Position numbers and translations under genes: made by a program
Source of the DNA: a virus
Virus record (IMG/VR): IMGVR_UViG_3300048587_000158
Location: 1-38,677 of that record
DNA: 38,677 bases
Strand: one strand, 5' to 3'
Notes under the pieces: generated by a model
The model's input: only the letters and a program-made list of their open reading frames with translations
Told to the model about the DNA's origin: nothing
Database searches by the model: none
Part shown: positions 16,262-37,920 of the stretch, piece by piece
Numbering within the stretch: the stretch's first letter is position 1
Layout of the letters: each line of letters begins with the position of its first letter

Positions 16262-17542
16262 TCAGGTCTCCGGCTGCTTCAGCCAGTGCATGAGCGCGGC
16301 GCGCACCGCGTTGGAGTCGGAATCGGTGCTGCCGAGCTGGTCGATCGGAATCAGCGCGGATTGAACGGTGAAGATGTCGCCGCCAGGGATTGGCTGCAGA
16401 TCCTCAAGCTCTCTAACTTCGTTTCTGCTCATCCATCCGTGGTCCAAGGCGGATGAGTAGAACGACGTGCGGCCGGCTGTGTCAGCGCGCAGCAGGCCCT
16501 CGACCGAGAACTTCGGGAAAGTGTCGATTTGCTCGACTGGCGAGAGCAGCTGAAACCTGATGGCATCTTCGAACCGCTTCAGCCAGGAATTCAGCCCGTA
16601 CTGCAGGAACCACAGGTTCATTGCCTCCGAACTGCTCGCCCAACTCGACGCCTTGGACGTGTGCCCGATCATCGGAGGCGGAACGCCGAACCATCGGCAG
16701 ATTTCCTCGATGTCGAAGCCGCGGCTTTCGAGCAGCTGCGCATCAGCAGGGTCGATGCCGATCTCGCCGACCTCGATGCCGCCCTCAAGAACCGGCGGCT
16801 TGCCGGCGTTCAGTGATCCGTGCAACTTGTCGATTGTCTGATCGCGGAAGGTGTCGCGCTGCTCTGGCGTCAGCCACTTCGGGTACTTGTAATACGTGGT
16901 CGGCATCAGCCCGTTTTTGAACGTGCCCTTTGCCGCATTGTTCGCAGCAAGCGCGCCGCCGATGACCTCGGCGCCGTACTGGATCACGGACAAGCCGAAA
17001 GGCCCGCAGGTTGTGAATCCAGGGACATGCAGAACGTCGCGTTGCGGAATCTCCCGGAATGTCCCGTCCGGCTCGGTGTAGCTGAACAGGTAGGACCTGT
17101 CCGCCTGCCGTGCCCAGCGCAACCGATCAGGGTGCAGGAAGGTCAGCCCAACGACCCTTCCGCCGATTCGATCAATCTCCGCGAACCCATCGCCGCGAAG
17201 CATCGCGCTCGCCGCCATGCACTCCCACAAGATCGACGAGGTCATGCGCAGGTTTGCGCGCATCCCGATGATCCGGTTCAGCGGGTGCCGCTCATCGTAG
17301 ATGCGCCGCCCGCCGTCCTTCTTGTAGATGCCGACCGGCAATGATCCGATGGTCTGCGCGACCAGGCGCGTGCACGCCCATACCGCGGAGAGCGTGAGCG
17401 CCTCGCCCGCATTCACGCGGACGCCGGACTTCGAATCCTGACCCATGAACTGGCGCCAGTGTTCGACGTCGGACCATCCGAACCCCAGCCAGTTCAGAAC
17501 TGCCGACTTGATCCGACCTGGCTTGCGGGCTTTGTTCGTCAT
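16262..17542 (-). CDS. Portal protein, HK97 family, 426 aa
   Basis: Contains ALTLSAVWACTRLVAQTIGSLPVGIYKK, the conserved portal N-terminus, DVLHVPGFT, the basic EICRWFGVPPPMIGHTSKASSWASSSEAMNLWFLQ clip/wing segment, and ELEDLQPIPGGDIFT at the C-terminus. These are the hallmarks of phage portals of the HK97 type. ATG overlaps the terminase stop (ATGA). It forms the dodecamer through which DNA is packaged. Confidence 0.95.
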   Translation of the reverse strand: MTNKARKPGRIKSAVLNWLGFGWSDVEHWRQFMGQDSKSGVRVNAGEALTLSAVWACTRLVAQTIGSLPVGIYKKDGGRRIYDERHPLNRIIGMRANLRMTSSILWECMAASAMLRGDGFAEIDRIGGRVVGLTFLHPDRLRWARQADRSYLFSYTEPDGTFREIPQRDVLHVPGFTTCGPFGLSVIQYGAEVIGGALAANNAAKGTFKNGLMPTTYYKYPKWLTPEQRDTFRDQTIDKLHGSLNAGKPPVLEGGIEVGEIGIDPADAQLLESRGFDIEEICRWFGVPPPMIGHTSKASSWASSSEAMNLWFLQYGLNSWLKRFEDAIRFQLLSPVEQIDTFPKFSVEGLLRADTAGRTSFYSSALDHGWMSRNEVRELEDLQPIPGGDIFTVQSALIPIDQLGSTDSDSNAVRAALMHWLKQPET

Positions 17543-20361
17543 CGTCCGGTCACCGGGTTGGAAAGGAAGCCATCGATGTCACCTTCCGGCAACACCGAAA
17601 GGGCTACGCCGACCGCCATGTAGAGAGCAGCCATGTCGTCGATCTTGTCGGGACTCCGGCGCTTGTCCGGGGCCATGTTCATGTTCGCGTCGTAACGCGG
17701 TATCAGGTTACTCGCGCACCAGCGCAGCACCGGGTCTCCGCCGTGCACAAGGTCGCCGGATCGGTACGCCCGGTCCACCTCCTGCATCGCCGGGTGATAG
17801 GACTTCGGTCCCTGAATGAACCGCACCAGCGGCAAGCCGTCTTCCAGCAACCGGTTGCTCAAGTCCTTTGCGTTCCAGTCGTCAAACGCGATCGACTGCG
17901 GCGAGAACCTTGCGACATCCTCGCGGATGGCCTGCTCGATCACCGCATAGTCGACGGTGTCGCCGCCAGTCTGGCTGACGTGGCCGCCCTCGACCCATGC
18001 TGCGTAAGTGTTCGCGCCTCGCTGCGTCCGGTGCCTCACGGCTTCTTCCGGCACCCAGCGCCGACCCCATGTGTACCACTTGCCGTCGACGCGCCAGACG
18101 AGCCGCCATGCGGTCATGTCGGTGGTGCTGGACAGGTCCAATCCAGCCCAGCACGGGTACTGAGCCAGCCAGTCGAGGTTTATCGCCCCGTCGCAGCGGT
18201 TCCACTTGCGAATGTCGATCAGCGACTTCGCGTTGCTGCTCTGCCGGTTCAAGCGCTTGATCCGGAACTCGGCGAGCTTGCCGGGCATGGCCCGCGCTTC
18301 GATCGCTTCTTTCCGGATCGCCGCCAAAAGATGCGGGTTCGCATCGGCCAGCGGGTTGGCCTTGATCCATGCCGTCTCGTCGAAGTCTTCATCCTCGTCG
18401 TCGACGGCGAAGAACAGCGCAAGGAAGTGGTCGGCCGTTACGCCGAGAACACCCTCAAGCACCTGGCGCGCGAAGTGGCGAAGCTCAGGCCACGGCCCGG
18501 GCGTTTCATATCCCTCGGTCGTCGTGAACAGCCACAGCGGCGAACTGCGCGCGCCGGCAGCGGACTGCAGCACGTTCAATAGGTCGCCCGACTTGTGGGC
18601 GTGGATCTCGTCGAGCGCCGTGTGCGACGGGTTCAGGCCGTCTTGCGTGCTGGCCTTCGCGTTGATCGGCTTAAAGCCCGCGCCGGTCTCAAGTCGCGTG
18701 ATCGCGTTCGCCCAGCACTCGAGGCCGAACGCCTCGCGCAGCGCGGACTTCTTCTCCGCCATCCGCTTGGCCACGTTCCAGATGATCCGCGCCTGGCTGC
18801 CGGTAGTCGCTGCGCTCACCAGCTGCGCGCCTGGCTCATCCTCGCAGCACATGCAGTACAGCATGATCGCTGCGGCCAGAGTGCTGTTGTGCGTCAGCAG
18901 CATGGACTTGCCAAACAGAAACAGACTGTCCGGCGCATCGACAGTGATGCACTTGACCGGCACGGGCGGAACTCGATCCGCCGCAACGATTTGCACCGTT
19001 CGCGACCGCGGCGTTCCTGCTTGATCCAGCATCCGATCCAGTTTGCGACGCAACCTGAAAACCGGAAGCTGGTCCCGGAATGCCATGAACTGCAGCTTGT
19101 GGCCGGTCCCTGAAACCTCGATGCCGTTGCAAACCAGTCGCTCCCGCCGCCACGAGTACTTCAATCCGAAGCTAGCAAGCAATTCCGCTACGCCGCGCGT
19201 TAGCTGTTCGCTGGTTGACGTGAAACTCAGGACTCTCCCGCTCTTGCTGATCGTTCCGTCGGTGTCCATCAGCCCCTGCAGAAGCGCAAGCCGCTGTTCT
19301 CGCGAGGCTCGAAGGTAGATTGCTGGAATCCCCTTGTTGCCAAGCACACCTGTCGCTCGCAGTTGAGCCGCGAGACTCTTATTGCGAGCGGACTGCGTAC
19401 GGTCGCCATCAGAAATGACGAACGTGGACGCCTTGCTGCCGTTGCAATACTTTTCCCGCACTGGCCAGCCATCAGCGCGAATGCCGTCGATGATCTCGAT
19501 GTCGTCGCGATCACATGTGATCCGCGCCGCCGCCGAGTGCCCGTCTCCAAGCCACGCACCAAGCGTGTATGGCGAGATAGGCAGCGATGCGACCGCACAC
19601 TGCAGCGGCTTAGGCATAAGAATCGAATGGTTCGTGTCGCCGCGCGCGCCACACTTCAGCGTCGCTGCGATTTCCTCCGTCGTTCGGACTCGCGTGCGAG
19701 TCGCGCCGTTGGATGTTCGCGCACCGTTCGGCTGATCGATTCGCGCCGATGTGAGCCAGCTATGACCCGCGTCCGCCACAACTTCTTCGCCGTTGCTGAA
19801 TTTCAGCCGGTAGCATTCGTGGTCAACGTAGACCGGGCTGACTGCCGTCACCGAACACGGCTTGCCATCAGCTCCGAACACCACATCACCCGGAGCCAGA
19901 TCGCCCATGGTCGACCAGCCCGAAGGCGTGGGGACCGGAGTATCCAACGCGAGCGCTTTAGCGTTCTTGCGCGCGACCGCGAACAGCGCCGACGTGAAGC
20001 GCCGCGTCTTGTCCGCCTTCCGAAAGCCGAACAGCTGCACCACGAAGAAAACGTGCGACGGATGCAGCACGATGTTCGGGGTTTCCCAAACGCCCTCGAC
20101 GTGCGGCAGCTTCTCGATGAAGTCGCAGGCGTTGTGTGCCTCCCACTCGTCGAACTTGAACGGCGCGCGCTTCCCCTTGGCGCGGCGTAGGTCATCGATG
20201 AATCGGCGCGCGGCGAGCTTAATCAGCCGGCCGAACTTCTTTCCCGAGCGGTCGGCGATGGCCTCGCGGGCGTAGCCTTCAGCGATCGCGACGTAGTCAC
20301 GCCCGCGGCTTGGCCTGCTTCCTGTTTTGCGTGAACTCGTTTTTCGCTGGCTCGTCGCCAT
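17539..20361 (-). CDS. terL: Terminase large subunit with inserted intein, 940 aa
   Basis: ATP-driven packaging motor and nuclease. Extein is 583 aa, the usual size. Walker A is split: residues 131-135 RKNAK, then the intein (136-492), then 493 STLAAAI; splicing restores RKNAKS. Walker B is ALDEIHAH. Nuclease: GLDLSSTTDM and SPDKIDDMAAL, the RuvC-like acidic motifs. ATG lies within the TerS reading frame (65-nt overlap with its end). The packaging motor should be inactive until splicing, since the P-loop Ser comes after the intein. See the intein entry. Confidence 0.96.
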   Translation of the reverse strand: MATSQRKTSSRKTGSRPSRGRDYVAIAEGYAREAIADRSGKKFGRLIKLAARRFIDDLRRAKGKRAPFKFDEWEAHNACDFIEKLPHVEGVWETPNIVLHPSHVFFVVQLFGFRKADKTRRFTSALFAVARKNAKALALDTPVPTPSGWSTMGDLAPGDVVFGADGKPCSVTAVSPVYVDHECYRLKFSNGEEVVADAGHSWLTSARIDQPNGARTSNGATRTRVRTTEEIAATLKCGARGDTNHSILMPKPLQCAVASLPISPYTLGAWLGDGHSAAARITCDRDDIEIIDGIRADGWPVREKYCNGSKASTFVISDGDRTQSARNKSLAAQLRATGVLGNKGIPAIYLRASREQRLALLQGLMDTDGTISKSGRVLSFTSTSEQLTRGVAELLASFGLKYSWRRERLVCNGIEVSGTGHKLQFMAFRDQLPVFRLRRKLDRMLDQAGTPRSRTVQIVAADRVPPVPVKCITVDAPDSLFLFGKSMLLTHNSTLAAAIMLYCMCCEDEPGAQLVSAATTGSQARIIWNVAKRMAEKKSALREAFGLECWANAITRLETGAGFKPINAKASTQDGLNPSHTALDEIHAHKSGDLLNVLQSAAGARSSPLWLFTTTEGYETPGPWPELRHFARQVLEGVLGVTADHFLALFFAVDDEDEDFDETAWIKANPLADANPHLLAAIRKEAIEARAMPGKLAEFRIKRLNRQSSNAKSLIDIRKWNRCDGAINLDWLAQYPCWAGLDLSSTTDMTAWRLVWRVDGKWYTWGRRWVPEEAVRHRTQRGANTYAAWVEGGHVSQTGGDTVDYAVIEQAIREDVARFSPQSIAFDDWNAKDLSNRLLEDGLPLVRFIQGPKSYHPAMQEVDRAYRSGDLVHGGDPVLRWCASNLIPRYDANMNMAPDKRRSPDKIDDMAALYMAVGVALSVLPEGDIDGFLSNPVTGR
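18886..19956 (-). mobile_element. Class-3-like intein with LAGLIDADG endonuclease, 357 aa, in TerL P-loop
   Basis: Starts at Ala136 (ALALDTPVPTPSGW) where most inteins have Cys/Ser, so the usual N-terminal nucleophile is absent. The three residues that define class 3 inteins are visible: Trp202 two residues after block B His200 (GHSWLT), Cys471 in block F (VKCITVDAP, position 4), and Thr490 before the terminal His491-Asn492; +1 residue Ser493. The endonuclease carries LGAWLGDGH (268-275) and LLQGLMDTDGT (360-370), the two LAGLIDADG (DOD) motifs, so homing may still work. GC of one sampled line is 60%. Confidence 0.92.
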
Positions 20362-20716
20362 GCGGTCGCACCTTTCCTTGAGCGACAGGGGTCAAGCCGA
20401 AGTCGTTTGCCAGCGCGCGGTACTGCGCGATCAGTGCAGCGTTCGGACTCTCGCCGGCCGCGTACAGCTGGACGATCTTGCCGTGCAGCGCGCACATCTG
20501 GCCGAGCGCGGACAGACCGCCTTCGGTCAGCAGTCGATTGGCAACCAGGACGCGCGTCAGGCGCTCCCATTCGCGCACCGCATGACCGTTCGGCATCCAC
20601 TCGGGCGCTGGAGGGATCTCGTCGATGGACGGCAGATCCACGACCGGAGCAGCTCGGTCAGGTCGAGCGGTGCCGGCGACAACCTTCAAGTTGTGCGGCT
20701 TACGGGCTCGGCTCAT
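20297..20716 (-). CDS. terS: Terminase small subunit, P27 family, 139 aa
   Basis: Helical protein with the P27-like pattern: SRARKPHNLKVVAGTARPDR, PPAPEWMPNGHAVREWERLTRVL, and a central ALGQMCALHGKIVQLYAAGE. Binds the packaging site and recruits TerL. Directly upstream of terL, overlapping it by 65 nt in another frame. Preceded by a weak GAG Shine-Dalgarno sequence. Confidence 0.85.
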   Translation of the reverse strand: MSRARKPHNLKVVAGTARPDRAAPVVDLPSIDEIPPAPEWMPNGHAVREWERLTRVLVANRLLTEGGLSALGQMCALHGKIVQLYAAGESPNAALIAQYRALANDFGLTPVAQGKVRPHGDEPAKNEFTQNRKQAKPRA

Positions 20717-20803: not shown

Positions 20804-20962
20804 TTACCCCCACCCATCTTCAGGCTTCGGGATCCGATTGCCGTCGAGATCCTCGACGGTCGCGTCGGCATCACCCTCATCCTCGCCGAGCAGATGCGCG
20901 AGCATCGCCTCGACGATCTTCATGCGGCTCTCAAGCGCCGCGACCTTGGCCTGCACGTCCAT
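20804..20962 (-). CDS. Small acidic protein between HNH nuclease and terS, 52 aa
   Basis: ATG at 20962 inside the end of the HNH gene, TAA at 20806-20804. Reads MDVQAKVAALESRMKIVEAM then an acidic stretch GEDEGDADATVEDLDG and an aromatic C-terminus EDGWG. Heptad spacing of the N-terminus suggests a short coiled coil. Same transcript as HNH and terminase genes, so it may help packaging. Function unknown. Confidence 0.65.
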   Translation of the reverse strand: MDVQAKVAALESRMKIVEAMLAHLLGEDEGDADATVEDLDGNRIPKPEDGWG

Positions 20963-21254
20963 CCTGCTCTGCCCTTGTCTTGCTGCTATGGCAGACCGCG
21001 CACAGCGTCTGCAGGTTGCCTGCGTCGTTGTTGTGGCTGTCGTTGTCGATGTGGTCGACCTGGTCGCCGTAGTGCTTGCAGGCTGCGCACGTAAACCCGT
21101 CGCGCTGCAGGATCACCAGGCGCAGCATTCGCCAGCCCTTCGACCCGGTGTGCATCGCTCGCCGCTGCTGGCGATCCTTTGGCCCATGCCCACGCGGGTT
21201 GTGCAGCTTGGCAGCCGACCGCACGAGGCGATGGGTTGGCGCCTTGCGCGGCAT
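20931..21254 (-). CDS. HNH endonuclease next to terminase, 107 aa
   Basis: MPRKAPTHRLVRSAAK N-terminus, then RDGFTCAACKHYGDQVDHIDNDSHNN...LQTLCAVCHSSKT. This is the HNH core with two CxxC zinc ligands (CAAC and CAVC) and DHI-D-N-H. HNH enzymes beside terminases (HK97 gp74-like) act with TerL in cos cleavage. It follows a 50-bp gap after the 97-aa gene. Confidence 0.88.
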   Translation of the reverse strand: MPRKAPTHRLVRSAAKLHNPRGHGPKDRQQRRAMHTGSKGWRMLRLVILQRDGFTCAACKHYGDQVDHIDNDSHNNDAGNLQTLCAVCHSSKTRAEQDGRAGQGRGA

Positions 21255-36900: not shown

Positions 36901-37920
36901 ATGGGACGCCGCCGCTCCAAGCTTTGCCACTTGCCGCCGCGCATGCAGCCTCGCCACGGCGCGTACTACCATGTGGCGACGCTCGAAGGCCGGCAGAAGT
37001 GGACGCGCCTGGCGCCGATCAGCGACTACGGCGAGGCCTTGCGGCGCTGGGCAGAGATCGAGGGGACGGACAAGCGGCAGGGCGATACTGTTGCCGAGGC
37101 GGTGCACAGCTACCTCGGCGCGTTTGCCGAGCAGGTCAAGGCCGGCGAGCGGTCAGCGAAGACCCTGACCGGCTACCAGGCGTCATCCGTCATGCTGCTG
37201 GGCGTACTCGGCGATATGCCGCTGATCCGCGTCACCGATCAAGATGTGCGCCGGTACCGGAGTGGCCGCGCCAATGCTGACGGCAAGCCTGCGCCGATTG
37301 CAGCAAACCGCGAGCTGGCTCTGCTCAGCGCGTCCTACGGGCACGCCGCCGAGCTTGGCTGGATCGCCGCCGCCGTGAACCCGTGCAGGCATGTGAAGCG
37401 CAACCAGGAGCGCGCGCGAACGCGCTACGTGACCGACGCAGAGATGACTCGCGTGCTGGCGTCAGCGTCGCCTACGATGCGCGCGGCGATCACGATCAGC
37501 GCGAGCACTGGCATGCGGATGACCGACCTGCTCAAGTTACGGCTGTCGGATCTGACCGACGACGGCATCGCGATCAAGGCGAGCAAGACGGGCAAGGGGA
37601 TGGTCTACGAGTGGACCGATGTACTGCGCGCGGCCGTCGAAATTGCGAAGGCGGCGAAGCATGGTCATGCCGTGCGCAGTCTGTACCTGTTCCCTGGCCG
37701 CGAGCCCGGCAGGCACATGACGATGGACGGCTGGGAGTCGAACTGGGCGCGGCTGCGGGAGAAGGCCGGAGTGCCCGACCTGCAGTGGCGAGATTGGAGG
37801 CGAAAGGCTGGCAGCGATACAACGCTGGCGCATGCCGTCGAGCTGCTCGATCACAGCGATGGGCGCACCACGAAGCGGCACTATCGGGCGGGAATTAACC
37901 GAGTCAAACCGGTGCGATAG
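36901..37920 (+). CDS. int: Tyrosine integrase, 339 aa
   Basis: Arm-binding N-terminal region (RRSKLCHLPPRMQPRH), core-binding region, and a catalytic domain with Arg206 (STGMRMTDLL), Lys229 (SKTGKG), WRRKAGSD in the place of HxxR (Arg300 region), His318 (LLDHSD) and nucleophile Tyr328 (RHYRAG). Integrates at the tRNA-Thr-like attP just downstream. Confidence 0.92.
   Translation: MGRRRSKLCHLPPRMQPRHGAYYHVATLEGRQKWTRLAPISDYGEALRRWAEIEGTDKRQGDTVAEAVHSYLGAFAEQVKAGERSAKTLTGYQASSVMLLGVLGDMPLIRVTDQDVRRYRSGRANADGKPAPIAANRELALLSASYGHAAELGWIAAAVNPCRHVKRNQERARTRYVTDAEMTRVLASASPTMRAAITISASTGMRMTDLLKLRLSDLTDDGIAIKASKTGKGMVYEWTDVLRAAVEIAKAAKHGHAVRSLYLFPGREPGRHMTMDGWESNWARLREKAGVPDLQWRDWRRKAGSDTTLAHAVELLDHSDGRTTKRHYRAGINRVKPVR

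Follow-up and report, generated by a model that had tools for sequence, protein, structure and literature searches.

Inteins have been described in the ATPase domains of mycobacteriophage large terminases (TerL), and one of them separates two invariant P-loop residues, Lys and Thr (PMC5050341). Splicing of terminase inteins has been shown experimentally, including that of Gaia TerL1-e, and cleavage has likewise been demonstrated for BAKA TerL1-b and Bethlehem TerL1-c (PMC5050341). Our own reading of the Gaia TerL1-e sequence reveals the Trp-Cys-Thr (WCT) triad of class 3, the class whose definition, including Ser or Thr at position +1, is given in PMC5222942 and also in PMC7891396. A count made in 2020 arrived at 1701 inteins of class 3, 82.5% of them with LAGLIDADG (PMC7891396).

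The window analysed here is the whole of a 38.7-kb virus record, and its minus strand encodes a TerL precursor that would measure 583 residues once freed of its intein (Table 1). Pfam searches detect LAGLIDADG_3 inside the intein, and both terminase domains, TerL_ATPase and TerL_nuclease, in the flanking extein sequence. The gene lies between those for the terminase small subunit and the portal protein, and genes for the head protease and the major head protein follow. A small HNH endonuclease gene (20931-21254, minus strand) is found just upstream of the small subunit gene. An integrase match (PHROG 1) at 36901-37920 on the plus strand suggests that the phage is probably temperate.

Table 1. 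Positions in the window of terL, its intein and the neighbouring genes
Feature	Position	Strand	Basis
terL ORF, 940-aa precursor	17539..20361	-	Pfam TerL_ATPase PF03354 and TerL_nuclease PF20441
N-extein, 135 aa, last residues LFAVARKNAK (P-loop Lys)	19957..20361	-	intein-free homologues continue through ARKNAK/STL
Class 3 intein, 357 aa, A1...N357	18886..19956	-	signature, PDB matches, 76 relatives, AlphaFold model and structure comparison
Block B His65-Ser66-Trp67 (H B:10, W B:12)	19756..19764	-	H and W invariant, 76/76
First LAGLIDADG motif LGAWLGDG, residues 132-139	19540..19563	-	D138 in 74/76
Second LAGLIDADG motif LLQGLMDTDG, residues 225-234	19255..19284	-	Pfam LAGLIDADG_3 E 7e-11; D233 in 76/76
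Block F Cys336 (Cys471 of the precursor), which presumably acts as first nucleophile	18949..18951	-	invariant 76/76; aligned with its counterpart in 6rix and 6bs8
Block G Thr355-His356-Asn357	18886..18894	-	invariant 76/76
C-extein, 448 aa, first residues Ser+1-Thr-Leu	17542..18885	-	
Terminase small subunit, neighbour upstream of terL	20297..20716	-	PHROG 83, E 1e-13
Portal protein, neighbour downstream; its start overlaps terL end	16262..17542	-	PHROG 12, E 8e-108

The intein comprises precursor residues 136-492 (1071 bp, in frame), starts with ALALDTPVPTPSGW and ends with LLTHN. The presence of Ala1, His65 and Trp67 (B:12), Cys336 (F:4), Thr355 (G:5) and His356-Asn357, followed by Ser+1, fits the published definition and assigns the intein to class 3. 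Trp67, Cys336, Thr355, His65, His356 and Asn357 (the last being Asn492 of the precursor) are each invariant in the 76 full-length relatives examined, on which all counts of WCT conservation given here rest. Position 1 carries none of Cys, Ser or Thr; it is Ala here and in 59 of the 76 relatives, and mostly Pro or Gly in the rest. Assignment to class 1 was rejected as the N-terminal nucleophile is absent, and assignment to class 2 as the full WCT triad is present. The first PDB matches in a phmmer search were the class 3 DnaB1 inteins of Mycobacterium chimaera and M. smegmatis (E-values between 2.6e-29 and 1.1e-27), and Trp67, Cys336 and Thr355 align with their counterparts in 6BS8 and 6RIX. 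An AlphaFold model of the intein, built from 40 sequences, has a mean pLDDT of 95.8 and superposes on 6BS8 (chain A) over 127 of 127 residues at 1.3 Å (Z 21.7), and on PI-SceI over its whole length (341 residues, 3.7 Å, Z 27.5); the predicted structure thus has the Hedgehog/intein fold of the solved class 3 inteins. A preliminary description of this DNA had proposed a class 3 intein at this position on the strength of Ala1 and the triad. Its coordinates, strand, frame, residues, spliced length and numbering of Cys471 and Asn492 all proved correct, and the class assignment is borne out by sequence, profile and structure comparison, including the pairing of the block F Cys with those of 6RIX and 6BS8.

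The intein is also found in three further contigs, which come from other metagenome sets and share 99.98-100% DNA identity; one of these is cut off by its contig end and holds only the C-terminal 68 residues of the intein. The agreement of these three contigs rules out an assembly artefact, and chance likeness is ruled out by the phmmer E-value of 2.6e-29 and by the 115 intein-free TerL sequences that align continuously across the junction. A decayed insert that no longer splices, or an artefact, is vanishingly improbable: nothing was found in favour of either, while the open frame, the full set of catalytic residues and the three contigs speak against both. Third codon positions have a lower GC content within the intein (0.69) than within the exteins (0.83), a difference consistent with a foreign origin of the intein.

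The insertion separates the Lys and Ser of the P-loop of the TerL ATPase (RKNAK/STL, where the slash marks the insertion point), as the preliminary description had proposed. We found TerL relatives that lack an intein match in 77 viral and 39 bacterial-genome sequences, and of these, the 76 viral and 39 bacterial ones that extend across the site mostly read ARKNAK/STL. The bacterial sources are mainly Stenotrophomonas, Pseudomonas and Burkholderiales, and the host therefore probably belongs to the Pseudomonadota. With a TerL1 ATPase (PF03354) interrupted between the P-loop Lys and Ser/Thr, the site is of the TerL1-a type as defined in PMC5050341. The intein is present in every copy of this phage; we looked for a copy without it and found none, the nearest empty terL being around 71% identical.

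We consider it very likely that the locus holds a class 3 intein that is full-length and mobile and occupies a TerL1-a type site, the P-loop Lys/Ser of a Terminase_1-type TerL. By analogy with characterised class 3 inteins, whose mechanism is set out in PMC5222942, Cys336 would attack the Lys-Ala1 bond to form a branched thioester at block F, from which the N-extein would pass to Ser+1; Asn357 would then cyclise with the help of His356, and an O-N acyl shift would restore RKNAKSTL, so that the ATPase would become functional only once splicing is complete. Since the N-terminal nucleophile is absent and position 1 is Ala, one may also picture a class 2 route in which Ser+1, in place of Cys336, serves as first nucleophile and attacks the N-terminal junction directly. 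This route is very improbable given that the complete Trp-Cys-Thr triplet is present and invariant in the relatives, and that loss of Cys F:4 brought splicing to a complete halt in all three of the tested class 3 mini-inteins that bear this signature (PMC5222942).

Mobility of the class 3 intein would depend on its central LAGLIDADG domain, which probably cleaves intein-free terL at the P-loop codons, whereupon repair of the cut gene would copy the intein in. Both motifs are kept, as previously proposed, and each retains its acidic residue (Asp); these intact motifs suggest an active endonuclease. The suggestion that the intein may home into intein-free terL is plausible, in view of the motifs, the intein-free alleles and the incongruence between intein and extein. 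Among the matches listed, the closest intein is that of L003 (IMG/VR contig 3300038441_001251), which is 61% identical and occupies the same Lys/Ser point of the P-loop, and yet its TerL, still recognisable as such, is only 22% identical to that of the window. The intein tree joins the two (SH-aLRT 95), whereas the extein tree groups the window with the contigs L004, L005 and L008 (97). The intein data reject the extein clade that holds the window sequence (AU p 4e-5, for a group picked after the tree was seen), but the extein data do not reject the pairing with L003 (AU p 0.18) because L003 forms a very long branch, and the case for transfer thus rests on the mismatch in identity and on the rejection of the extein clade by the intein data. 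These comparisons support horizontal movement of the intein between terminase lineages. In DNA, the L003 insertion site agrees with that of the window at only 27 of 48 bases, a match too low to establish a common cleavage site.

It is possible, although doubtful, that the intein splices while its endonuclease is dead or unable to cut extant targets, and that inheritance is now vertical. Every copy of this phage has an identical intein, we found no high-identity sister phage with an empty site, and the 48 bases around the insertion match empty sites at up to 39 positions, so that the nearest intein-free relatives differ at nine or more target bases. Against this reading, the Asp of each LAGLIDADG motif is intact, and the incongruence of intein and extein shows past mobility of the lineage.

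The intein has a Cys at position 48 (codon 19813-19815), as do 67 of the 76 relatives. A Cys48-Cys118 disulfide stops splicing of the M. smegmatis DnaBi1 intein, in the study of which Cys48 was called non-conserved (PMC6195587). The equivalent bond here would link Cys48 and Cys336, and splicing could then be conditional, with oxidative stress pausing TerL activation and DNA packaging. The conservation of Cys48 and the DnaBi1 precedent favour such control, but we regard it as unlikely: DnaBi1 lost splicing with each of the replacements of Cys48 that were made (PMC6195587), so that a switch is no more likely than a structural role, and nothing speaks for a benefit to the phage. That a Cys48-Cys336 disulfide keeps TerL unspliced as a redox gate on packaging, and that this switch is conserved across phage class 3 inteins, is quite improbable. 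If it were true, oxidative stress would hold TerL unspliced and pause packaging of phage DNA.

The preliminary description had also called class 3 inteins rare, and this does not hold. In addition to the 2020 count, a scan of viral contigs returned at least 599 confirmed relatives of this intein, and 723 of 50,697 phage records match it, the WCT triad having been checked in part of them; matches from Vibrio, Stenotrophomonas, Rhodobacter, Acidovorax and Gordonia phages carry the triad and follow a Lys in P-loop-like sequence. Class 3 inteins are thus known and abundant in phage terminases, even at the P-loop Lys, as in Mycobacterium phage Eureka with its equivalent Lys/Thr site. Several inteins appear to vary the class pattern. 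The terminase WCT inteins of Stenotrophomonas phage SOVA965, Rhodobacter phage RcKickapoo and Acidovorax phage ACF1 follow immediately on the P-loop Lys and apparently have Pro, Arg or Cys as their first residue, and in ACF1 Asn replaces the first LAGLIDADG Asp. A WCT intein in contig L050 (2998-4011) apparently starts with Cys (YHWK/CLSLDTP) and may be an intermediate between classes 1 and 3 or a secondary gain. A class-3-type intein in L055 (5-1042), its start lost at the contig end, apparently ends in Thr-Gly-Asn before Cys+1 (PTGN/CGKS); the loss of the penultimate His and the Cys at +1 are both unusual for class 3.

The intein is confirmed as real and well preserved, but of a kind known from many phages. 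With its good preservation, its intein-free relatives and the mismatch between intein (61%) and extein (22%) identity, this class 3 intein adds weight to the view that inteins passing between unrelated phage lineages favour the P-loop of terminases. Alone it changes little, the conservation of Cys48 being the sole point worth following up.

Among known systems, the intein of Eureka gp8 resembles the one described here in its class 3 WCT triad, its LAGLIDADG endonuclease and its position in TerL after the P-loop Lys (ARKNGK/TELLAG), and its insertion site would place it in the TerL1-a group of PMC5050341. It differs in sharing only 35% intein identity, in having Thr rather than Ser at +1, and in residing in a different TerL, probably in other hosts. 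The best match among the 50,697 phage records, the TerL intein of Vibrio phage 489E54-1 (43.9% identity), has the WCT triad at the site RKYGK/TTF, but belongs to another TerL lineage and again precedes Thr+1. The M. smegmatis (6BS8) and M. chimaera (6RIX) DnaB1 inteins are 48-49% identical in the splicing domain (1.3-1.8 Å) and share the catalytic residues and Cys48, although they are mini-inteins devoid of an endonuclease whose host protein is a replicative helicase. PI-SceI, the yeast VMA1 intein, likewise combines the splicing fold with a LAGLIDADG endonuclease and aligns end to end, but it is a class 1 intein (Cys1) of around 19% identity in a yeast host gene, VMA1.
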